DNA from: Pseudomonadota bacterium | GTDB taxonomy: Bacteria; Pseudomonadota; Alphaproteobacteria; Rhizobiales; Xanthobacteraceae | Reading direction: 5' to 3' | Assembly: GCA_023392205.1 (NCBI GenBank) | Contig: JAEVZN010000379.1 | Span: forward strand, 1 to 10,297 | DNA: 10,297 nucleotides | In this document: piece after piece, positions 1 to 10,297 of the stretch | Position numbering within the stretch: the first letter of the stretch is position 1 | How the letters are laid out: each line of letters opens with the position of its first letter | The notes under the pieces: generated by a model | Database searches by the model: none | Told to the model about the DNA's origin: nothing | The model's input: the letters and a program-made list of their open reading frames with translations, nothing else | Position numbers and translations under genes: made by a program

Positions 1-32
1 CAGGATACGCTTCCGTCAAAACATGAACCGCT

Positions 33-1049
33 CTAAGGTGCCCGAAAGACATGTCCCGCAGGAACGCCGACGCAGACATCCAGCAGGAAATTGTCAAGTC
101 CGAACCGCGCCACGGACCGGGTATAGGCGCGGCTGCCGATGAGCGAGGCGATGGACCTCGTCCGCGTCCGGAAGGACTTTGAGGAGTAAAGCTTCAGCCG
201 CAAGCCGGCATAGCGCCGTGCCAGATCGAAATGATCGACAGCGGCTTCAATTTTGCTTGTGTCCGACGCCAGCTCCCGCAATTCCGCCAGCAGAGCCAGC
301 CGGTTCTCCGCTGCGAGGGCAGCAGCTTTCGCGTAATAACCTGCATGGGTCACGCTATGCAGCGTGTAGGCAATCCGCCGGGCGGGCAGCCAGCCGGAGG
401 TGTTTGCACCATGCTGACGATAGCTTGCGAGTTGCTCCGGGATGTAGGCGATAGCTCCGAAAACCGATCCGAGAAACTGAAACCACTGATCATGCGGCAT
501 GCATTCGGTTGGACAATATGTATCGACCGACCGGGCGTGAACCGCAGAAAAGTCGAGCAGTGATCGCCTGATCACCTGCGAAAAGCCGGGGATGATCGTC
601 CACAGCGGCAGTTCCAGCGGCGCGTAAGTCCGGGGCGCCATCATCCGGAAAGTCTGTGCAATCGGATTGCAATTCCGATCTACAACCGCAGCGTTGTGAA
701 ATGCGAGCATCACGGCCGGATCGGCAAACGGCTTGCTCAGTCTTTCGAGCTTCTCAGGATGCCACAAATCGTCCTGATCGCAGAAGGCGATAAGATCGCC
801 CCGGCAAAGGTGGGCGGCCTTGAGAAAATTTTTGCGATATCCCAGCCGAGCATCATTCCGGAAAATCCGGACCGGGAACGGCGAATCGCGAGAAAAGTGC
901 TCGACGAGTTGGACGGTGTCGTCAGTGGAAAGATCGTCACAAACGACAAGTTCGTCGGGATATCGGCTCTGTCGCGCAAGCGACTCGAGCTGCGCCACCA
1001 CATAGCGCGCGCCATTATGCGTCGCCAAAGCGACGGATAGGGTCCCCAT
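33..1049 (-). CDS. Family 2 glycosyltransferase (rhamnosyltransferase-like)
   Basis: This 338-residue protein is a GT-A fold, family 2 glycosyltransferase that probably adds a sugar to a surface polysaccharide or glycolipid on the cytoplasmic side of the membrane. The N-terminus has the typical opening SVALATHNGARYV (residues 5-17). An Asp pair follows at residues 38-39 (VVCDDLSTDDT), then the metal/nucleotide-sugar DxD-type motif DQDD at 91-94, and an HD pair at 186-187 (MPHDQWF) where this family usually has its catalytic acid/base. The segment YRQHGANTSG (210-219) is common in rhamnosyltransferase-like GT2 enzymes. I see no clear membrane segment, and the C-terminal third looks helical. 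The start is the ATG at 1049; a TTG two codons upstream (1055) is possible, and an in-frame TGA lies just beyond it. It is transcribed away from the lipid operon and shares its upstream region. Donor and acceptor sugars cannot be told from the sequence. Confidence 0.88.
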   Translation of the reverse strand: MGTLSVALATHNGARYVVAQLESLARQSRYPDELVVCDDLSTDDTVQLVEHFSRDSPFPVRIFRNDARLGYRKNFLKAAHLCRGDLIAFCDQDDLWHPEKLERLSKPFADPAVMLAFHNAAVVDRNCNPIAQTFRMMAPRTYAPLELPLWTIIPGFSQVIRRSLLDFSAVHARSVDTYCPTECMPHDQWFQFLGSVFGAIAYIPEQLASYRQHGANTSGWLPARRIAYTLHSVTHAGYYAKAAALAAENRLALLAELRELASDTSKIEAAVDHFDLARRYAGLRLKLYSSKSFRTRTRSIASLIGSRAYTRSVARFGLDNFLLDVCVGVPAGHVFRAP

Positions 1050-1072
1050 CCCCAAGCCCCCACACTCATACG

Positions 1073-1096
1073 TTCAGGAACGAACCCGTTCCTGAA
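1073..1096. repeat. Perfect 10-bp inverted repeat, possible operator
   Basis: The left arm TTCAGGAACG (1073-1082) and right arm CGTTCCTGAA (1087-1096) are exact reverse complements, separated by AACC. No T-run follows on either strand and both neighbouring genes point away from it, so it is not a convincing intrinsic terminator. Its place between divergent genes suits a dimeric regulator's binding site. On the minus strand it could instead form a hairpin in the leader of the glycosyltransferase mRNA. Confidence 0.6.
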
Positions 1097-1104
1097 GAAA
1101 AGCC

Positions 1105-1135
1105 TTGCAAAATGGTACATCTTTCCGGGTAAATA
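1105..1135 (+). promoter_or_regulatory. Weak candidate sigma70-type promoter for the synthase operon
   Basis: TTGCAA at 1105-1110 resembles a -35 box, and TAAATA at 1130-1135 resembles a -10 box, with a 19-bp spacer (18 if GTAAAT is used). The spacer is longer than ideal. The -35 lies 8 bp after the inverted repeat at 1073-1096, so a protein bound there would sit just upstream of polymerase. An alternative pair is TTGTCG (1157-1162) with TTATCA (1179-1184), spaced 16 bp. Neither is strong. Confidence 0.2.
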
Positions 1136-1169
1136 CCGCAACACTAAACGCAGTGGTTGTCGCGGTTTT

Positions 1170-1184
1170 TGATAGCCGTTATCA
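1170..1184. repeat. Short dyad TGATA-N5-TATCA
   Basis: TGATA (1170-1174) and TATCA (1180-1184) form a 5-bp dyad around GCCGT, 17 bp before the chosen synthase start. It could be a small regulator site or overlap a -10 element. Dyads this short arise often by chance, so the support is weak. Confidence 0.2.
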
Positions 1185-1201
1185 GGCTGGGGCCGGAAAG
1201 G

Positions 1202-4200
1202 ATGCGGGGTTCGGGGGGACTTTTGACGACGACGATACACAATTTGCGGGAAAACGTCGCAGTCGTCGGATGGGCGTGCCGGTTTCCGGGTGCCCATTCG
1301 ATTTCTGACCTGTGGTCTGTGCTCGTCGAGGGACGTTGCACCGTAACGGAAATGCCTGCGGATCGTTTTCCGCTGGGGCGGTTCGCGCATCGCGGAAAGC
1401 AGGTTCGCGGAAAAAGTTATACATGGGCCGCCGGCGTCCTCGACGATGTATTCGGGTTCGATCCGGAGGTTTTCGGAATTGCCCCGCGCGAAGCGGAGCA
1501 GATGGACCCCCAGCAGCGCCTCCTGCTCGAATTGACATGGGAGGCGCTGGAGGATGCGGGAATAAGACCCTCAAGCCTTGCCGGTAAGGATATAGGCGTC
1601 TTCGTCGGCGCATCGCTCACCGATTACGGGAATATACTCTCAGGCGACCCCGCGCTCGCCGACGCCCAATTTGCGACCGGCAATTCGCTCGCGGTGCTGT
1701 CGAACCGGATTTCATACGTTTTCGATTTGAAGGGTCCGAGCCTCACAATCGATACGGCTTGCTCATCCTCACTGGTGGCGCTTCACCATGCGGTCGAGGC
1801 ATTGCGCAGCGGCCGTGTCGATACCGCAATTGTCGGCGGCGTGAATGTGATCGCGAGCCCGGCCGGCTTCATCATGTTCTCGCAGGCTTCGATGCTTTCG
1901 CCGACCGGCCGGTGCCGGGCATTTTCGGCCGATGCGGATGGCTTCGTGCGCGCCGAGGGAGGCGCCGTTCTGGTCCTGCGCCGCGCCGGGCTGGCGCAAC
2001 TTGAACTGAACCCCGTCCATGGATTTGTCCTCGCTTCGGATGTGAATTCGGACGGCCGCACACCAGGAATTCTGCTCCCGTCCGGCGCTGCGCAGGAAGA
2101 ACTCGTGAGCCGGGTCTATGCCCGTTCCGGCATCCCGGCATCTCAGCTCGCATTCGTGGAGGCGCACGGGACCGGAACACAGGCTGGCGATCCGATTGAG
2201 GCGCATGCCATAGGTCGCGCACTTGGCGCGGTCCGGAAAGATGCGCTTCCGATCGGATCGATCAAAACGAACATCGGACATCTCGAACCCGCCTCCGGGA
2301 TTGCGGGGGTCATCAAATCCATCCTGGCACTCAATTACGGCTTGCTGCCGCGCTCGCTGCATTTCTCCGCGCCGAATCCGCGCATCGATTTCGATGGGCT
2401 GGGATTGCGGCCGGCAGACAGCCCGATCCTGCTGCCCAATGCAGCCAAGCAATGCGCGGGCGTCAATTCATTCGGGTTTGGCGGCACCAATGCCCATGTG
2501 GTGGTGGCGGGAGGCAAGCCGGCGGACGTTCGGGAAGGAGTAGGAGCAGGCGCTTCCTATTTCTTCATATCGGCCAAGAGTGCTCCTGCGCTCCGTCAAC
2601 TCGCCCAGGAATATCGGTTGCGCCTGGCCCATCTCTCCAACACCGATGCGTCGGCCATGGCTTCCGTGGCTGCGTATCGCCGGGATCATCTGGATTATCG
2701 GCTGATGCTGCCGTTTGGCGCGGACAGCGATATCCTGCGCAAGCTCGACGCCTTTTTGGAAGACGATGCGATCGAAGGCTTTTCGGCCGGCCAGGCTGTT
2801 GGCCAGAACATGCCGGTTGCATTCGTCTATTCGGGCAACGGCGCACAATGGGCGGGGATGGGCATTTCGGCGTATCGCCACAATACAGTGTTTCGCGAGA
2901 CCTTCGACGATATCGACCGGCTGTTTGCTCCGCTGGCCGGCTGGTCGTTGCGCGAATGCATGCAAAGCGCCGAATTGCCGGAGGCCCTCAACAGGACCAA
3001 TGTCGCGCAGCCTTTGATTTTCGCAATTCAGGTCGCGGCGACGCATGCCCTGCGCGAGAGCGGCATCGTCCCTTGCGTGGTCCTCGGCCACAGCGTCGGA
3101 GAGGTCGCCGCAGCCTATGCATCCGGCGCGATTGATCTGGCTGCTGCGGTCAAGGTCATCTTTTTCCGGAGCAAGCACCAGGAAGAGACGCGCGGTCAGG
3201 GTCGCATGATTGCGCTTTCGGCCTCTGCCGATGCGGCGAAGCAATTGATGGACGATGGCGCGAGCCTGGAAATCGCCGCCTTCAACAGTCCATACTCGAT
3301 CACTGTCGCCGGGTCCGACGAGGATATCGCAGCATTTCGTGCACGCGCGCGCGCTGAGTCGATCGCAACCCTCGACCTTGGCCTGGAATATCCGTTTCAC
3401 ACCGCCGCCATGGATGCGCTCGAAGCGGGACTGAAGCGCGATCTGCATGATGTCGTCGCGATCGACGGGACAATACCGTTTGTCTCTTCCGTGACCGGAC
3501 GATGTCTTCCCAGCAGTCGGCTCGACGGAAGATATTGGTGGCAGAATGTGCGCGAGCCGGTGCGGTTCGATGCTGCCGTCGGAGAGGCCGCGCGGCAGGG
3601 CGCCCGCTTTTTCATCGAATTGGGACCGCGCGGATTGCTCACCAAGCATATCGAGGACATTCTGAAGGATCATCCCGATCCGACGTATGCCTGCGGCACC
3701 CTCGAACGTCATGATGACGATTGCGATCCCTTTCCCGCGATTCTTTGCAAGGTTCTGGTTGCCGGAGCGAAGGTCGATTTCGACTGTATATTCGGCGGCG
3801 ATCCGGGTGCCGTCACCGCTTTGCCTGCATATCCGTGGCAGCGCCGGCATTTCCGTCTCGGCGCAACCGTCGAGGCGCATGGCACCTTCGAATCACATCG
3901 CACACGTTATTCCGGCGCCCGCCTTTCGGAGCACGACCTCGAGTGGCACGCTCATATCGACACGCTTGTCATGCCAGAATTGGCCGATCATCGCGTCGGC
4001 GAGCAAACGATTTTCCCTGGAACCGGGTTTTTGGAGATGGCGCTCAGCGTCGCGCGGGAATGGGTGAAATCGGACCAGATCGGCATTGCGGAATTCGAGA
4101 TCCTGAAGCCGCTCGACCTGTCGCTGGAGGAAACGCGGCATGTGATGACCAGGATTTCGCCGGTCTCGAATGCCATCGAAATTCTCAGCCGCCCGCGGCT

Positions 4201-7200
4201 GACCGAAGGCGACTGGCTTCTGAATTGCCGCGGAAAAATCCTCCAGGGGCGCGCGGGCGCCGAGCCGGAGCCTGAGACAGGACCACCCGGTGAAGCGACA
4301 ATTGCGTCGGAAATATATCGACTCACCGAGCGTCACGGCCTGCACTATGGACCGGCATTCCGGCTGGTCACGCAAGCCCGTCGCGCCGGCGATCGCATTG
4401 TCGTCGATCTCGCCGAGCATCCTCAGATCGAACAGGTGTCCCTCGACCCGGTGCGACTGGATGCCTGTAGCCACGCTATGCTGTTGGTGTTCGCGGAGCT
4501 GAGCGCCTGGGAACGTGGTGTCACCTACATTCCGGTCCGGATCGATGAGATTTTGCTGTTTCTGCCGGGTGCTGTTATCCGGCGTGCTGTCATCGACATC
4601 GTCTCGAAGGGCGAGCGATCGATCCTCGTCAATTATAGAATATTTTCCGAAGACGGCGCGATCATTGCCGAATTGCGCGGCGTACGCGCGCAGGCAATCC
4701 CGATCCGGCGTCCGGTCCTGCTCGAAGCGAACGCCGTTGTGGAGCAGAGACGGCTGATTGCCGCCGACCTGGCTGCACCTCTGGATCTGTCCGGCGAGAT
4801 CGCGATGAAGGGCAAGGCGACTGAACTCGACCGCGCCGACCTTGTACTCGATGCCTGGGCCATCGCGCTGGTATCCGAGTTCATGCGCGTGTTCGCAGAT
4901 GAGGGAATGGTCTATCCCGAGCGTCTGATTGAAGACCGTCGCTGGCCGCCGGAGCAGCTGGAGTGGTTGAGCGGGCTGCTCGATCGCCTCGGTGCCGCCG
5001 GACTGACCGAACGGGTCGGCAACCGCTGGCGTCTCACCGACGAGATCGAGCTTCCTTCGGCAACAGAGATGTTGCAGACCCTTTATGACGAGCATCCTGA
5101 ATGTGCCGCCGATTTGCTTCTGGCGGGCGACATGAACTCGTGGCTGGCCAGAGTGAAGGCTCAGGGCAGATTTTCTGAACCCGCAATAGTGACGCGCGAA
5201 AGCATGGATTTCCGCAACCTCGTCGGATCCGGGGATCGGGCGCGTGGTGCGCTACTGGGCGATCTTGTCCGCCATTCCATAGACTGGCCCGATGACCGCG
5301 CATTGCGTGTACTGCATATCGGCGCATATGCCGCTGCCGCTGACTTGGTGTCGTATCTGGAGTCCAGGGACGCGCTCCAGACTTTCTACGAGACCGATCC
5401 GGGGCGATGCGAGAGCACCATGCCGCGACGCCTGCGTGGCGGCCGGGTGGTCGAATTCCTTCCTGACGAAAACTTTGACCTTGTCCTTGCCGTGGACGGA
5501 CTGTCTCGGTCCGCCGATCTTTCCGGCCTTCAGACGTTGCTGGCGCCGGGCGGACGACTGCTCGCGGTTGAAGCGCCGCCCAGCATCTATGAGGACGTCG
5601 TCCTCGGCTTGAGCAAGTCCGTTCAGCGCCTTTTGCGCCGCTCCGCGGAACAATGGCGGGACGTCCTCGCGCGCGCCGGTTTCAAGTCTGTCGACGTCGG
5701 TATCGGAGAAAAGGCTGCAATTGTTATCTCCGCGCTCTCCAGTCAAAGCCTGTCTGCGGGGGAAGCCGGCGGTCCAAAGGGTGCAAGCTATCATTTTGTC
5801 CCGGATATTTCGGACGAGCATCTGGCCGGGCGGCTACGCAACTATCTTGTAGCCTGTGAGAGCGGAGGAGACGTCGCTCCGGTTTACATCTGCGCGTTGC
5901 CGCAGATCGCAAAAACTTGTGACACTTCGCTTCTCACCGGCCTTCTCATGAAGATCAGGGCCTTTGCCGAGGGAGTGGCGGAGAATGAAGTTCCGGTCTG
6001 GTTCGTGTTCAATGGCAACGCAGATCTTCCTGTGAACCGCGCGCTATGGGCGGCGACACGGGTGGTTGCAAACGAATATTCCAATCTCCGGGTCCATCGT
6101 GTGTCGATGGAGCAAGGATATTCGGACACTGATCTTGCCGTATTTGGTCGGCTGATCGCCGGCGGTACCGCCGAAACAGAGATACGCATCGATAACGGAG
6201 TTATGCGGGCAATCCGCATCGAGGCTTTCGGCAGCCCCGCGTCGGCGCCCGTTGGCGAGGCTGCCACCCTGGAACGGCAACACGATATCGCAGATCGCCT
6301 GCGCTGGGTTCCGGTATCGCGCCGAGCGCCGGGTGATGACGAGGTCGAGGTTGCGGTCGAGGCGAGCGGGCTCAACTTCCGCGACGTCATGTGGATGCTG
6401 GGTCTTCTGCCGGACGATATTCTCGAAGACGGATTCGCCGGGCCGACACTTGGGCTCGAATGCGCCGGCATTGTGATCCGCTGCGGGTCGAAGGTCGGCA
6501 ATTTCAAAGTGGGCGACCGCGTGGTGGGGTTCATTCCGTCCGCCTTTTCAACACACGTGACGGTCGGCTGCCGGCATGTGATGCGCATTCCCGGACAGAT
6601 CACGGCGGCCGCGGCTGCGACCATTCCGGTGGCCTTCCTCACGGCGCATTACGGACTTGTGACCCTGGCCAGACTGAAGGCCGGGGAATGGGTGCTCATC
6701 CATTCGGCCGCCGGCGCGGTCGGGCTTGCGGCGATCCAGATCGCACAGGCGCGGGGCGCGCGCATCGTGGCGACCGCAGGGTCAGCGGCCAAACGTGACA
6801 TGCTAAAGGCCCTGGGCATCGAGCATGTGCTGGATTCGAGGTCGCTGGCCTTTGTCGACGAGGTCAGAAAGCTCGTCCCGCAGGGTATCGACGTGGTGCT
6901 CAACAGTCTGGCCGGCGAAGCGATGGAGCGAAGCTTGGCCTGCCTGCGGCCATTCGGACGTTTCATCGAACTCGGTAAACGCGATTATATCGCCAACACG
7001 CATATCGGCCTGCGCCCGTTCCGCAAGAATGTCAGTTATTTCGGTGTCGACGTGGATCAACTGGTCGGCCGGCAGGCGGCGGTCGGTCGCAAGGTATTCG
7101 CGGCCGTGATGAAGAACGTCGAGAAGGGCGTTTACCGGCCGCTTCCGCATAGCGTGGTTCCGGCCTCCGATACGCTTGAGGCATTCGCTGCCATGCAGGC

Positions 7201-8470
7201 GGCGGCGCATATCGGCAAGATCGTGATCACGCCTCCGCGCGCCGTGGCGCAACGGGAAGCCGCATTCGAGATCGCATCTGATCGCACCCATGTTGTGACG
7301 GGCGGTCTTGGCGGGTTTGGTCTGGCAACGGCTCAGTGGCTGGTGGATCGCGGCGCGCGTCATCTCGTTCTGTGCAGTCGCAGCGGTCCGGAATCCGAAG
7401 AGGCTAAACAGGCCTTGCGCGATTTCGAGGCGAAAGGCGTTCAGGTCCTTGCCGCCCGATGTGATGTGTCGGATCGCGCGGCGATCGAAGACCTGTTCGC
7501 CCGGATCGAGGCCACCATGCCGCCGGTCTGCGGCGTCATGCATGCCGCGATGGTTCTCGACGATGCCCTGATGAGTAATCTCGATGCGGAGCGCGTCGCG
7601 CGTGTGCTGCGTCCCAAGATTGCCGGTGCCAACCACCTGCATGAACTCACGCAAGGAATGCCGCTGGACTATTTGGTGATGTTTTCGTCCATCACCACGA
7701 TCTTCGGCAATCCAGGACAGGCCAATTATGTGGCGGCCAATGCCTATCTCGAAGGGCTGGCGCAATATCGTAAGCGGCTGGGACTGCCGGCTCTCGCGGT
7801 GGGCTTCGGACCCATCTCCGATGTCGGCGTTGTGGCAAGGAACGAGGCCCTGCAGGACAGCTTGCGTGCCGTGGGCGGATTGCACGGGATGAAGTCGCGC
7901 GACGCGCTCGACCTGCTTGGACAGGCGATGCAACGATTCCGTGCTGACCCGGACCGGGCGGTTGTCACCATCGCTGCGCGAGATGGAAACATGGCGCTCG
8001 ACCGGTTGCCGGTCATCAAGTCGCCGACCTATGCGGCATGGGCCAGTCTGCGCGCAATCGCGAATGTCGCGGGCCAGATGGATCTGCGCGTGCTGGTCAG
8101 GGAGAAAGAAATCCACGAGGTAAGGGAACTGGTGGCCGACGTCGTCTCCTCACAGGTTGCCGCGGTCCTCCGCACGCAACCCGATATGCTGGTCCGTACG
8201 CGTGCGTTGACCGAAATGGGTCTCGATTCCCTGATGGCGCTCGAACTTGGATTGAATTTGGAAAAAGCATTCGGGATCGAAATACCGCTGACTGTTTCGG
8301 CTGCCGACCTGACGATCGGAAAGCTCGCCGACCGGATCGTGGTGCTGGCGGGGGGTGGGCGGCCGACAGACGACGAGCGCGCCGACACTCTCGCGGGTTC
8401 GCATCTGCCCGATATTCGTCCAGAACAGGTCGATGCACTTGAGGCGATCATCGCCGCAAGGGCGAAATGA
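1202..8470 (+). CDS. rkpA: Fully reducing type I polyketide/fatty acid synthase, RkpA-like
   Basis: This 2422-residue cytosolic megasynthase contains a single complete reducing module and probably works iteratively to make a saturated or nearly saturated acyl chain. Domains in order: KS (about 17-435) with Cys187 in TACSSS, His322 in EAHGTGT and His360 in NIGH; AT (about 539-830) with Ser631 in GHSVGE, Arg656 and His733 in YPFHT; DH (about 905-1165) with His930 and the Asp1087/His1091 pair in LDACSH; a degenerate methyltransferase region (about 1210-1510); a KR structural half (about 1525-1675); ER (about 1695-2010) with nucleotide-binding HSAAGAVG at 1834-1841; KR (about 2025-2215) with TGGLGGFG at 2033-2040, an LDD motif at 2119-2121 (B-type signature), Lys2139, Ser2163, Tyr2176 and Asn2180; and ACP with Ser2343 in MGLDSL for the phosphopantetheine arm. 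A tail of about 38 residues follows the ACP. There is no thioesterase or reductase release domain. I chose the ATG at 1202, 17 residues before the conserved KS start; in-frame TTG codons at 1157, 1223 and 1244 are alternatives. The next two genes follow with almost no gap, as in rhizobial rkpAGH. Domain calls are firm; the rkpA name rests on gene order and architecture. Confidence 0.9.
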   Translation: MRGSGGLLTTTIHNLRENVAVVGWACRFPGAHSISDLWSVLVEGRCTVTEMPADRFPLGRFAHRGKQVRGKSYTWAAGVLDDVFGFDPEVFGIAPREAEQMDPQQRLLLELTWEALEDAGIRPSSLAGKDIGVFVGASLTDYGNILSGDPALADAQFATGNSLAVLSNRISYVFDLKGPSLTIDTACSSSLVALHHAVEALRSGRVDTAIVGGVNVIASPAGFIMFSQASMLSPTGRCRAFSADADGFVRAEGGAVLVLRRAGLAQLELNPVHGFVLASDVNSDGRTPGILLPSGAAQEELVSRVYARSGIPASQLAFVEAHGTGTQAGDPIEAHAIGRALGAVRKDALPIGSIKTNIGHLEPASGIAGVIKSILALNYGLLPRSLHFSAPNPRIDFDGLGLRPADSPILLPNAAKQCAGVNSFGFGGTNAHVVVAGGKPADVREGVGAGASYFFISAKSAPALRQLAQEYRLRLAHLSNTDASAMASVAAYRRDHLDYRLMLPFGADSDILRKLDAFLEDDAIEGFSAGQAVGQNMPVAFVYSGNGAQWAGMGISAYRHNTVFRETFDDIDRLFAPLAGWSLRECMQSAELPEALNRTNVAQPLIFAIQVAATHALRESGIVPCVVLGHSVGEVAAAYASGAIDLAAAVKVIFFRSKHQEETRGQGRMIALSASADAAKQLMDDGASLEIAAFNSPYSITVAGSDEDIAAFRARARAESIATLDLGLEYPFHTAAMDALEAGLKRDLHDVVAIDGTIPFVSSVTGRCLPSSRLDGRYWWQNVREPVRFDAAVGEAARQGARFFIELGPRGLLTKHIEDILKDHPDPTYACGTLERHDDDCDPFPAILCKVLVAGAKVDFDCIFGGDPGAVTALPAYPWQRRHFRLGATVEAHGTFESHRTRYSGARLSEHDLEWHAHIDTLVMPELADHRVGEQTIFPGTGFLEMALSVAREWVKSDQIGIAEFEILKPLDLSLEETRHVMTRISPVSNAIEILSRPRLTEGDWLLNCRGKILQGRAGAEPEPETGPPGEATIASEIYRLTERHGLHYGPAFRLVTQARRAGDRIVVDLAEHPQIEQVSLDPVRLDACSHAMLLVFAELSAWERGVTYIPVRIDEILLFLPGAVIRRAVIDIVSKGERSILVNYRIFSEDGAIIAELRGVRAQAIPIRRPVLLEANAVVEQRRLIAADLAAPLDLSGEIAMKGKATELDRADLVLDAWAIALVSEFMRVFADEGMVYPERLIEDRRWPPEQLEWLSGLLDRLGAAGLTERVGNRWRLTDEIELPSATEMLQTLYDEHPECAADLLLAGDMNSWLARVKAQGRFSEPAIVTRESMDFRNLVGSGDRARGALLGDLVRHSIDWPDDRALRVLHIGAYAAAADLVSYLESRDALQTFYETDPGRCESTMPRRLRGGRVVEFLPDENFDLVLAVDGLSRSADLSGLQTLLAPGGRLLAVEAPPSIYEDVVLGLSKSVQRLLRRSAEQWRDVLARAGFKSVDVGIGEKAAIVISALSSQSLSAGEAGGPKGASYHFVPDISDEHLAGRLRNYLVACESGGDVAPVYICALPQIAKTCDTSLLTGLLMKIRAFAEGVAENEVPVWFVFNGNADLPVNRALWAATRVVANEYSNLRVHRVSMEQGYSDTDLAVFGRLIAGGTAETEIRIDNGVMRAIRIEAFGSPASAPVGEAATLERQHDIADRLRWVPVSRRAPGDDEVEVAVEASGLNFRDVMWMLGLLPDDILEDGFAGPTLGLECAGIVIRCGSKVGNFKVGDRVVGFIPSAFSTHVTVGCRHVMRIPGQITAAAAATIPVAFLTAHYGLVTLARLKAGEWVLIHSAAGAVGLAAIQIAQARGARIVATAGSAAKRDMLKALGIEHVLDSRSLAFVDEVRKLVPQGIDVVLNSLAGEAMERSLACLRPFGRFIELGKRDYIANTHIGLRPFRKNVSYFGVDVDQLVGRQAAVGRKVFAAVMKNVEKGVYRPLPHSVVPASDTLEAFAAMQAAAHIGKIVITPPRAVAQREAAFEIASDRTHVVTGGLGGFGLATAQWLVDRGARHLVLCSRSGPESEEAKQALRDFEAKGVQVLAARCDVSDRAAIEDLFARIEATMPPVCGVMHAAMVLDDALMSNLDAERVARVLRPKIAGANHLHELTQGMPLDYLVMFSSITTIFGNPGQANYVAANAYLEGLAQYRKRLGLPALAVGFGPISDVGVVARNEALQDSLRAVGGLHGMKSRDALDLLGQAMQRFRADPDRAVVTIAARDGNMALDRLPVIKSPTYAAWASLRAIANVAGQMDLRVLVREKEIHEVRELVADVVSSQVAAVLRTQPDMLVRTRALTEMGLDSLMALELGLNLEKAFGIEIPLTVSAADLTIGKLADRIVVLAGGGRPTDDERADTLAGSHLPDIRPEQVDALEAIIAARAK
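4829..5731 (+). other. Degenerate (pseudo) C-methyltransferase domain within the synthase
   Basis: Residues of about 1210-1510 sit between DH and ER, where highly reducing PKSs carry a C-methyltransferase. The start (LDAWAIALVSEFMR, then GLTERVGNRWRL at 1267-1278) resembles the helical lead-in of such domains. RVLHIGAYAAA (1369-1379) aligns with the SAM-binding consensus (V/L)LEIGAGTGG, but the acidic residue and the glycine run are replaced by His and by Tyr-Ala-Ala-Ala. The later strand NFDLVLAVDGLSR and the LLAPGGRLLAVE segment (1446-1457) keep the fold's usual pattern. I infer a catalytically dead domain kept for structure, as in animal FAS. Confidence 0.6.
8458..8462 (+). promoter_or_regulatory. 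Ribosome binding site supporting the GTG start of the oxoamine synthase
   Basis: AAGGG lies inside the last codons of the synthase, 9 bases before GTG at 8472. The nearby ATG at 8467 reads into TAA after three codons, so it cannot start the next protein. This favours GTG 8472 and suggests translational coupling to the synthase stop at 8468-8470. Confidence 0.5.
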
Positions 8471-8471
8471 A

Positions 8472-9806
8472 GTGGTAAAGCCTTCCATTGCCGATCTACA
8501 GGCGCGGCAGGAATTGCTGGCCCGGGTGTCGTCGATGTCACGCGAGGCGGCGCAGCCTGATTATTCGGAATTCACGAGAGTGTCGTCGCTTCCGGGCTAC
8601 GACGATCTCCGCCTCCAGTTCCAGATCGGCGCGACCTACGGCATCGATAATCCCTTTTTCCGGATGCACGAGGGACGTGCCGATTCCAGAACCGTGATCG
8701 ACGGAAAACCGGTTCTGAATTTTTCCTCTTACGACTATCTCGGACTCAATGGCCATCCCGAAGTGATCGCTGCGTCGCAGGAAGCGATCGCCCATTTCGG
8801 CGTGTCCTGCGGAGCGAGCCGGCATGTGGCCGGCGAACGGCAGATCCACCGTGAACTCGAATTGGCTCTCGCCGGGCTCTACGGCGTGGACGATTGTGCG
8901 GTCTTTGTCAGCGGCTATGCCACCAATCTCGGAGTGATCGGCCAGATGCTCGGGCCGAAGGATTTGATGATTCACGATGCCGTCATGCATAACAGCGCCA
9001 TCATGGGTGCCGAGCTTGCCGGATGCAAAAGGCTGAGCTTCCAGCACAATGATTTCGACGATCTCGACCGGATACTGAGCAGGGAACGGAGCCAGTATGC
9101 GCGGGTACTGATTGTGGTCGAAGGTCTGTACGGGATGGACGGCGATATTCCCGACCTCCCGCGCCTGGTCGAGATCAAGCGCAAGCATCATGCATGGCTC
9201 ATGGTGGACGAGGCGCATGCTTTGGGTGTGCTGGGGCGCACCGGGCAGGGCATCCATGAGCATTTTGGCATTGCCGGGACCGATATCGACCTGTGGATGG
9301 GAACATTGTCGAAGTCGCTGGCCTCCTGCGGCGGCTACATCGCGGCGTCCTCGGAACTGATCTTGTATCTGAAGAATACTGCCGGCGTGTTCGTGTTTAG
9401 CGTCGGTATGCCCCCGGTCATTGCGACAGCGGCGGCGACCGCATTGCGGGTCTGGCGGCGCGAGCCGGAACGTGTGCGCGCTCTGCATGCCAATGGACAA
9501 AGGTTTCAGGACGGCGCAAGGGCGGCGGGACTCGATACCGGAACCGGCATCGGCGCCGCCATCTGTCCGGTGGTCATCGGCGATTCCATGAAAGCCGTAA
9601 TATTGTCCCAGCAATTGCTGAAACGCGGGGTCAATGTGCAGCCGGTCATGTATCCTTCCGTTCCGGCAAAGGCGTCGCGATTACGCTTTTTTGTGACCCG
9701 GACGCACACATCGGAAGATATCGACCGCGGGCTTTGCATTTTGCGTGAGGAAATGGCGGGTCTTGGCGATACGATGCGGGGGATGAAAATACCGGGCTAT
9801 AGCTAG
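8472..9806 (+). CDS. rkpG: PLP-dependent alpha-oxoamine synthase, RkpG-like
   Basis: This 444-residue enzyme belongs to the alpha-oxoamine synthase family (BioF, Kbl, serine palmitoyltransferase, HemA), which condenses an acyl thioester with an amino acid, releases CO2 and gives an alpha-aminoketone. Visible family features are NFSSYDYLGL (83-92), GASRHVAGERQIHRELE (114-130), SGYATN (147-152), His173 in DAVMHNS (expected to stack on PLP), DEAHALGVLG with Asp246 and His249, and TLSKSLASCGGY with the PLP lysine at Lys281. Spacings of these residues match the family. About 80 residues precede NFSSYDYLGL, longer than in BioF or Kbl. The GTG at 8472 follows the synthase stop by one base, so the partner substrate is most likely the synthase's acyl-ACP; the amino acid is unknown. 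It could be named BioF or Kbl by similarity searches, but there are no biotin or threonine-degradation genes here. An in-frame ATG at 8535 is a less likely start. The rkpG name rests on gene order and the N-terminal extension. Confidence 0.9.
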   Translation: MVKPSIADLQARQELLARVSSMSREAAQPDYSEFTRVSSLPGYDDLRLQFQIGATYGIDNPFFRMHEGRADSRTVIDGKPVLNFSSYDYLGLNGHPEVIAASQEAIAHFGVSCGASRHVAGERQIHRELELALAGLYGVDDCAVFVSGYATNLGVIGQMLGPKDLMIHDAVMHNSAIMGAELAGCKRLSFQHNDFDDLDRILSRERSQYARVLIVVEGLYGMDGDIPDLPRLVEIKRKHHAWLMVDEAHALGVLGRTGQGIHEHFGIAGTDIDLWMGTLSKSLASCGGYIAASSELILYLKNTAGVFVFSVGMPPVIATAAATALRVWRREPERVRALHANGQRFQDGARAAGLDTGTGIGAAICPVVIGDSMKAVILSQQLLKRGVNVQPVMYPSVPAKASRLRFFVTRTHTSEDIDRGLCILREEMAGLGDTMRGMKIPGYS

Positions 9807-9814
9807 GTCATCGT

Positions 9815-10297
9815 TTGAAACGGACTATCCTGATCACTGGAGCATCGAGCGGCATCGGCGCCGCTTTGGCCCGGCATTATGCTGCGCCAGGGATGATTCT
9901 CGGACTGATGGGGCGCAATGAGGCCCGGCTGACCGGCGTTGCGGAGGAATGTATCCGGCGTGGGGCGGCAGTGGATGCGATGCTCTCCGATGTCCGGGAC
10001 CGGGCCAGAATGCAAGACCTGATCGAACATTTCGAACGGCGTCATGGCACGGATCTGGTGTTTGCCAATGCGGGCGTGACAGGCGGGGCGCGCGCAAACT
10101 CCGTATTGGAGCCAAGCGAACTGGCGCTTGTCCTGATGGAGACCAATGTTCAGGGTGTCATGAATACGATCCACCCACTGTTCGAACCGATGCTCGCGCG
10201 GGGACATGGGCAGATCGTGCTGGTTGGTTCGCTGGCCGGATTCGTGACCCTGCCCGACGCACCAAGTTATTGTGCGAGCAAACACGCGGTATTGACC
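9815..10297 (+). CDS. rkpH: Short-chain dehydrogenase/reductase, RkpH-like (cut by window end)
   Basis: The first 161 codons of a classical SDR are present and the frame stays open to the window end; the family is usually about 240-270 residues, so roughly 90 or more are missing. The Rossmann glycine motif is TGASSGIG at residues 8-15, followed by NAG (85-87), Asn111, Ser139 in LVGSLAG, and Tyr152/Lys156 in YCASK, so the Asn-Ser-Tyr-Lys catalytic set is complete. The start is a TTG at 9815, eight bases after the oxoamine synthase stop; no ATG lies near, and the glycine motif begins at residue 8, as expected for a classical SDR. The upstream Shine-Dalgarno match is weak, so coupling to the previous gene is likely. 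By position it should reduce the aminoketone made by the oxoamine synthase to an amino alcohol, as 3-ketosphinganine reductase does. That role is inferred; the sequence itself only shows an NAD(P)H-dependent oxidoreductase. Confidence 0.85.
   Translation, partial: MKRTILITGASSGIGAALARHYAAPGMILGLMGRNEARLTGVAEECIRRGAAVDAMLSDVRDRARMQDLIEHFERRHGTDLVFANAGVTGGARANSVLEPSELALVLMETNVQGVMNTIHPLFEPMLARGHGQIVLVGSLAGFVTLPDAPSYCASKHAVLT

Follow-up and report, generated by a model that had tools for sequence, protein, structure and literature searches.

What would a bacterium make with a dedicated long-chain synthase, an enzyme joining the chain to an amino acid and a ketone reductase placed in one operon, and for what would the product be used? 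This question is raised by a stretch of 10,297 nucleotides from a Xanthobacteraceae assembly (GCA_023392205.1, contig JAEVZN010000379.1, positions 1 to 10,297), called the window in this work. Three genes lie on the forward strand in 1202-10297 with gaps of 1 and 8 bases, encoding a one-module polyketide or fatty acid synthase (PKS/FAS, PKS in the following), an alpha-oxoamine synthase (AOS) and a short-chain dehydrogenase/reductase (SDR). Judged by its predicted proteins, the operon is a diverged new member of the SgaABC/RkpA-RkpG-RkpH group, and its product class is of a kind known since 2025. We consider, with a probability of about 0.55, that the operon makes a sphingoid base independently of ordinary fatty acid synthesis, most likely as the lipid anchor of a capsule. 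The tie between such an anchor role and the SgaAB chemistry is proposed here as the new and testable point.

A sequence-only reading of this DNA had delimited the same interval, which proved correct by open frames, Pfam domains above their cut-offs and catalytic motifs in all three genes. Its proposed logic, in which the synthase makes a chain, the AOS joins it to an amino acid and the SDR reduces the ketone, was upheld by the domains and motifs. The PKS (1202..8470, forward strand, 2422 aa) is encoded by a single open frame from ATG 1202 to the stop codon at 8468-8470. Pfam domains were located, all on the forward strand, for KS (1250-2365), AT (2822-3769), DH (3935-4702), ER (6332-7228), KR (7286-7819) and ACP (8144-8338). 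By motif scan together with family alignment, the KS Cys/His/His, AT GHSVGE, DH His and Asp, ACP Ser, the ER and KR nucleotide-binding motifs and the KR Ser/Tyr were found. The strict DH pattern HxxxGxxxxP and the strict ER pattern gave no match in the PKS by pattern scan; in the alignment the DH His and Pro are correctly spaced, the Gly is shifted and is variable among the relatives as well, and the ER motif is one residue away from the usual GGVG. The KR LDD and AT YPFH motifs are presumably of the kind seen in B-type ketoreductases and malonyl-specific AT domains.

Between DH and ER a long insert was delimited by family alignment (about 4703-6301, forward strand), common to the 28 aligned RkpA-type synthases and absent from three other AOS-paired or AOS-fused PKSs. 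The DH aspartate and the start of ER are 613 aa apart in the window, against 633-734 in the 28 RkpA-type synthases and 297-345 in the three others; two extra long frames, apparently antisense, were disregarded in this alignment. The insert carries a degenerate methyltransferase-like motif, VLHIGAYAAA (5309..5338, forward strand), whose position is not conserved over the family; it is probably the remnant of a non-functional methyltransferase. With an RkpA-type hidden Markov model (HMM) built without the window, the window PKS scored 2236 bits, under most RkpA-type synthases, while both synthases of genome G380 scored 2038 and 1906 bits and the best non-RkpA-type PKS frame 1547. The database search for PKS homologues was dominated by multi-module synthases and showed beyond this only that the window's own PKS protein is in the database; contigs with proteins identical to those of the window are 10.8 kb long at most. 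With one KS-AT-DH-ER-KR-ACP module, intact catalytic residues and the long insert, the predicted enzyme is of the RkpA/SgaA type, fully reducing and iterative.

The second gene encodes a putative pyridoxal phosphate (PLP)-dependent AOS of the RkpG/SgaB type (8472..9806, forward strand, 444 aa, PF00155). It starts with GTG at 8472, one base past the PKS stop, and ends at 9806. One database protein, P0001, matched it at 100% over the same 444 aa length; further database proteins were 73-77% identical, followed by a group at 56-62% including metagenome-assembled genomes labelled Bradyrhizobium, Pseudolabrys and Xanthobacteraceae, which points to a probably alphaproteobacterial source. A search for a near-identical plasmid copy found none. 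Residues His173, Asp246, His249, Lys281 and Arg405 are invariant in 40 aligned family members, the window included, and the PLP lysine K281 is encoded at 9312-9314 (forward strand).

In a maximum-likelihood tree quickly built from 70 AOS sequences, with SH-aLRT support only and several long outgroup branches, the window AOS grouped with AOSs linked to RkpA-type PKSs, apart from serine palmitoyltransferase (SPT), Kbl and BioF. It fell into a clade of 36 rows (98% SH-aLRT) with those of Sinorhizobium meliloti (locus L012), Shinella (L017) and Methylobacterium (L014), and most loci in this clade are capsule-linked. The AOSs of a Pseudomonas plasmid (L013) and of Burkholderiales (L015, L016) formed a neighbouring clade (87% support). 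Identity to the window AOS was 46% for S. meliloti, 51% for L013 and 37% for the SPT of Sphingobacterium multivorum. The AlphaFold2 model of the AOS (pLDDT 86, pTM 0.82) was nearest among Protein Data Bank (PDB) folds to S. multivorum SPT (8guh/3a2b), with a TM-score of 0.93 by target (0.82 by query) and 34% identity in that comparison. The analogy drawn before to SPT and 3-ketosphinganine reductase holds. Against the NCBIfam models, the AOS remained below the cut-offs of the classical SPT models (325.1 vs 640, 280.6 vs 500 and 230.2 vs 670 bits), of BioF (TIGR00858, 361.7 vs 426.45 bits) and of Kbl.

The third gene (9815..10297, forward strand) encodes the first 161 aa of a putative RkpH/SgaC-type SDR, starting with TTG eight bases past the AOS stop and cut by the window end. 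This part represents about 60% of the length of its 261-271 aa relatives, carries the motifs TGxxxGIG, NAG and YxxxK, passes the PF00106 cut-off and scored 177 bits against the family HMM. Among the matches listed, SDR relatives in other AOS loci were 36-49% identical, the best five 42-49%. It is presumed to be a 3-ketosphinganine reductase. As the SDR is incomplete, the claim of a complete route rests there on its N-terminal part.

The chemistry of homologous enzymes was published in 2025, and the former statement that the lipid product was not structurally defined is therefore superseded. In Pseudomonas fluorescens MYb115, the PKS SgaA and the AOS SgaB give very-long-chain sphinganines of C24, C26 and C28, which were abolished by deletion of either sgaA or sgaB; purified SgaB joined acyl-CoAs virtually exclusively to serine, and alanine and glycine were hardly used (PMC12134224). 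Compounds heavier by 154 Da were described as most likely phosphoglycerol sphingolipids, the SDR SgaC as the presumed reductase, and SgaAB homologues as predominantly found in Burkholderia (PMC12134224). The 154 Da shift is consistent with the phosphoglycerol proposed there. The MYb115 locus resembles the window in an iterative one-module PKS adjoining an AOS, a ketosphinganine-reductase-like SDR in the cluster and a proposed sphinganine route, and differs in that its SDR and PKS are six locus-tag steps apart, while the window SDR directly follows the AOS. MYb115 was compared through L013 as a stand-in, whose AOS is 51% identical and belongs to the neighbouring clade.

The rkp-1 region of S. 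meliloti is the nearest system by layout. The order rkpA-rkpG-rkpH, to which the operon had been likened, recurs as PKS-AOS-SDR on one strand in S. meliloti (L012) and Shinella (L017), and the kinship is borne out by the clade shared with the S. meliloti RkpG-type enzyme. S. meliloti is like the window in gene order, strand, PKS architecture with the DH-ER insert and AOS clade; unlike the window, which ends within the SDR, it has a PF00884 protein gene (RkpI-like) and a PF05159 protein gene (RkpJ-like) after the SDR. The rkp names for L012 genes were assigned here from order and domain content and are not in the record. The RkpJ-like protein and its Pseudomonas counterpart gave sub-cut-off matches to the KpsS model. 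Mutants in rkp-1 are reported as deficient in K polysaccharide (PMC4881576), and a lipid carrier or anchor role for rkp-1 had been proposed earlier as a hypothesis (PMC3557214, PMC4881576).

Capsule genes were looked for around the relatives. In the plasmid collection, where 697 records matched, 9 of 40 listed matches were opened. In six of the nine (S. meliloti, Pseudomonas, Methylobacterium, Caballeronia, Paraburkholderia and Shinella), an RkpA-type PKS stood immediately ahead of the AOS or at a distance of one gene, and capsule or polysaccharide-export genes were near the pair in five of the six by annotation and in the unannotated Methylobacterium record by HMM. In L013 the order is PKS, AOS, PhyH, KpsC-like, GNAT, lipoteichoic acid synthase (LTAS)-like, SDR. 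PKS and SDR are separated there by six locus-tag steps of five, just as in MYb115 (KW062_RS19805 to KW062_RS19775), and given this equal spacing, the sphingolipid cluster published for MYb115 may be a capsule locus as well. Two LTAS-like proteins were compared with solved structures. Both had lipoteichoic acid (LTA) primase and GacH, a phosphoglycerol transferase, among their nearest matches, and the Pseudomonas protein had LtaS as well; phosphoethanolamine transferases were absent from the matches listed, and one of the searches gave a further weak match to an immunoglobulin-binding protein.

For the survey of genomes, capsule core genes were defined as KpsC/S-like, LTAS-like, KpsM, KpsT, KpsE and KpsD, in flanks of about 19 kb. 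Loci were classed as RkpA-type at a PKS HMM score above 1900 bits, with G1080, whose PKS lies in several frames, added by hand. The HMM seeds came from capsule-linked named records and for PKS and AOS included the window, which was left out for the score tests. The first round gave 37 distinct AOS places in two samples, from which 32 were fetched and 31 counted, the truncated G001 (5.4 kb) being excluded; the unfetched places were G006:C19, G291:C10, G545, G541 and G615:C12, the last used later as a control, and G541 and G545 were counted as pair-less at genome level without their flanks seen. The second round covered 397 genomes of the order of G392, which was taken as Hyphomicrobiales from an AOS nearly identical to that of Methylobacterium L014, and 108 had matches. 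From these, 10 of the 11 top-scoring places were picked (the eleventh, G1087, being in the paired set), together with 10 of the 14 two-match genomes, which gave nine new RkpA-type loci plus G615 and ten second-AOS controls; G380, G823, G827 and G1018 were omitted from the pairs, with both matches scored as one kind. All capsule counts, Fisher and sign tests included, ignore relatedness, and several loci are cut by contig ends.

At least one capsule core gene was present near 32 of the 41 loci of RkpA type, against 3 of the 19 with another AOS. The contrast was sharper for KpsC/S-like genes (26/41 vs 0/19) and for two or more kinds of core gene together (24/41 vs 0/19). In the ten genomes holding both AOS kinds, a KpsC/S-like gene was near the RkpA-type locus in all ten and near the second AOS in none. 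At genome level the pair predicts KpsC/S-like genes: among 398 genomes of the phylum of G001, PF05159 was found in 15 of the 16 where the pair was detected and in 61 of the other 382. In a gammaproteobacteria-centred set, 7 of 12 AOS-bearing genomes had PF05159, being 7/8 with an RkpA-type pair and 0/4 with another AOS. Most relatives lie in loci for ABC-transporter, Kdo (3-deoxy-D-manno-oct-2-ulosonic acid)-linked capsules, and by analogy a capsule locus may be expected beyond the end of the window's SDR.

We propose the following mechanism for the anchor. The PKS would act iteratively, with its own ACP holding the long, saturated acyl chain. The AOS would then join the chain to an amino acid with loss of CO2, giving a 3-ketosphinganine-like base, and the SDR would turn the ketone into the sphinganine. 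The amino acid is most likely serine, and both it and the chain length are predictions for the window organism. A phosphoglycerol group would come next, for which some loci encode an LTA-synthase-like enzyme (in rhizobia RkpI), and KpsS and KpsC would extend the phosphoglycerol-sphinganine with Kdo in place of phosphatidylglycerol; both the RkpI step and the anchor role are inferred. In well-studied capsules, phosphatidylglycerol is the acceptor to which KpsS attaches Kdo, with extension by KpsC (PMC12220298). Phosphoglycerol-sphinganine has the same head group as phosphatidylglycerol, on one long chain. In the well-studied capsules the exact acceptor of KpsS is lyso-phosphatidylglycerol.

Several results weigh against a sphingoid capsule anchor. 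Capsule core genes were absent from the flanks of about 19 kb around nine of the 41 RkpA-type loci (G334, G624, G452, G380:C9, G815, G1080, G931, G920 and G984). PF05159 genes were present on other contigs of G334, G452 and G624; a Pfam search of ten mechanically picked open reading frames beside the G931, G984 and G815 loci found no capsule core gene, giving a sugar aminotransferase, a sulphur transporter, a GNAT protein, weak TPR matches and six frames without match. G380, the genome nearest to the window's clade, has transporter genes by one of its two copies and no PF05159. SDR genes were nearby in 20 of the 41 RkpA-type and 14 of the 19 other loci. Just 9 of the 41 (and 1 of the 19) have an LTAS-like gene, leaving the phosphoglycerol step unassigned in most loci. 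Moreover, LTA-synthase-type domains act outside the cytoplasm and KpsS/KpsC inside, so that a flip or another order of steps would be needed. KpsC/S capsules do not need the pair, as no pair was detected in 61 of 76 PF05159 genomes. The AOS score alone fails to place the window: with an AOS HMM built without it, the window scored 594 bits against 662 for L020 and 625 for G291, two loci without an RkpA-type PKS. Beside the window operon lies only the divergent glycosyltransferase gene described below, to which support from the window's own clade is likewise limited. The main text of PMC12134224 has no mention of capsule or of related terms such as Kdo and KpsC. Judging by its title, a 2005 paper cited in PMC4881576 reports that the poly-Kdo capsule of S. 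meliloti 1021 carries a phospholipidic anchor; phosphoglycerol-sphinganine is also a phospholipid, and an ordinary glycerophospholipid anchor would speak against the proposal.

The best surviving alternative, which we regard as possible but rather doubtful, is that the operon yields free sphinganine, or a phosphoglycerol sphingolipid, which acts in the membrane or is secreted, and that the capsule linkage reflects shared regulation or location only. MYb115 extracts did contain free C24-C28 sphinganines and, most likely, phosphoglycerol-sphinganines, and these were linked to the protection of Caenorhabditis elegans, with no capsule role in the account given (PMC12134224). The nine loci without a nearby capsule gene fit with this alternative, as do the fused PKS-AOS frames of Planktothrix and Streptomyces plasmids, without capsule matches in the fetched stretch, and the S. 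meliloti anchor of the 2005 title may be an ordinary phospholipid. However, location alone hardly explains the within-genome contrast of ten against none and the recurring KpsC/S-like genes, and the K-polysaccharide deficiency of rkp-1 mutants also argues against it.

An alanine- or glycine-using AOS, leading to a 1-deoxy-sphingoid-like base, is judged unlikely. The top NCBIfam score of the window AOS belongs to BioF, which uses alanine, and not to the SPT models (361.7 bits against 325.1 and lower, all sub-cut-off), and alanine is therefore possible as a substrate, a point against the serine step. The motif GASRHVAGER of the window AOS, which we take to be BioF-like at that position, was counted on the same side. 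Opposed to this are the solved folds nearest to the model, which are SPTs, and the near-exclusive use of serine over alanine and glycine by SgaB. Least of all, to the point of being dismissed, do we expect a BioF or Kbl of ordinary biotin or threonine metabolism standing merely beside a PKS: the superfamily is the same and many AOS relatives are labelled 8-amino-7-oxononanoate synthase, but the window AOS stays under both cut-offs, shares just 35-37% identity with solved SPT, Kbl and ThaOS, starts one base past the PKS stop and has its pairing with a PKS repeated in 41 loci (a set defined by that pairing).

Returning to the capsule anchor, further systems were compared with the window. WcbR/RkpA have been named and set apart from SwfA (PMC3908369). 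The Burkholderia WcbR-type clusters, judged through the related loci L015 and L016, likewise combine a one-module PKS with an AOS among capsule genes. Their AOS gene we take to be wcbT. L015 and L016 differ from the window by an LpxC-like deacetylase gene between PKS and AOS, an SDR upstream and an AOS in the neighbouring clade. SPT with 3-ketosphinganine reductase has the same two-step chemistry and the AOS fold best matches SPT, but the acyl chain there comes from acyl-CoA or a discrete acyl-ACP and not from a dedicated PKS. The fungal fumonisin and sphingofungin clusters contain an AOS. Likened by description only, they resemble the window in PKS-derived products and a KDSR-like SDR (PMC12134224), and differ in that the products are decorated toxins. 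SwfA of sponge symbionts has the same one-module KS-AT-DH-ER-KR-ACP, followed by a thioester reductase and sulphotransferase and no AOS (PMC3908369).

More tentatively, and short of even odds in our judgement, RkpA-RkpG-RkpH, the WcbR-type synthases and SgaABC may all be one system building the phosphoglycerol-sphinganine anchor of ABC-transporter, Kdo-linked capsules, with RkpI adding phosphoglycerol and KpsS/KpsC adding Kdo. If so, a large group of Gram-negative capsules would be anchored by a sphingolipid instead of phosphatidylglycerol, and the protective P. fluorescens sphingolipids would be capsule-anchor intermediates. The link, if right, would give the rkp-1 lipid a concrete and testable structure, account for a capsule needing these three enzymes, and predict that many bacteria not regarded as producers contain sphingoid bases. 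Among the open-licence PMC papers listed by the searches, none was found joining the rkp-1 lipid anchor idea to the SgaAB chemistry.

Upstream of the operon, a divergent gene for a family 2 glycosyltransferase (GT2, PF00535) lies at 33..1055 on the reverse strand. The protein has weak matches to TuaG/EpsE-type models, far under their cut-offs, and no relative of it was found at E 1e-8 in the fetched AOS loci. Scans of 950-1300 found no promoter or terminator. The longest contigs of GT2 relatives and of AOS relatives were identical in size three times (27,164, 20,097 and 64,185 bases), and these matching sizes suggest that GT2 repeatedly accompanies the PKS-AOS pair within the window's clade. 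GT2 probably belongs to the same surface-polysaccharide locus.

Some other arrangements were seen among the relatives. The second AOSs of the ten control genomes (L180-L199) are 42-46% identical to that of the window, with an SDR near nine of the ten, and are not capsule-linked. An LpxC-like deacetylase gene stands between or beside PKS and AOS in L015 (12949-13875), L016 (12935-13849), G308 and G676, with no obvious pathway role unless an acetylated sugar or N-acyl group is removed. PKS and AOS apparently form one frame in Planktothrix and a Streptomyces plasmid (L018:7611-15209, L019:10383-15206) and in G523:C320; the fetched stretches around these three frames gave no capsule matches. In G1080 (L152-L153), an RkpA-type PKS split into several frames lies next to an intact AOS. 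In Acidisoma (L020:13142-15215), an SDR and an AOS stand by KpsC/S-like, LTAS-like and ABC transporter genes with no PKS in the stretch, and a capsule lipid of such type might thus also come from ordinary acyl-ACP. Finally, the S. meliloti record L012 (CP090106.1) is titled pSymB, while its 3.7 Mb, secD and rkp-1 genes suggest a mislabelled chromosome; the rkp-1 genes are described as chromosomal in S. meliloti (PMC3557214).

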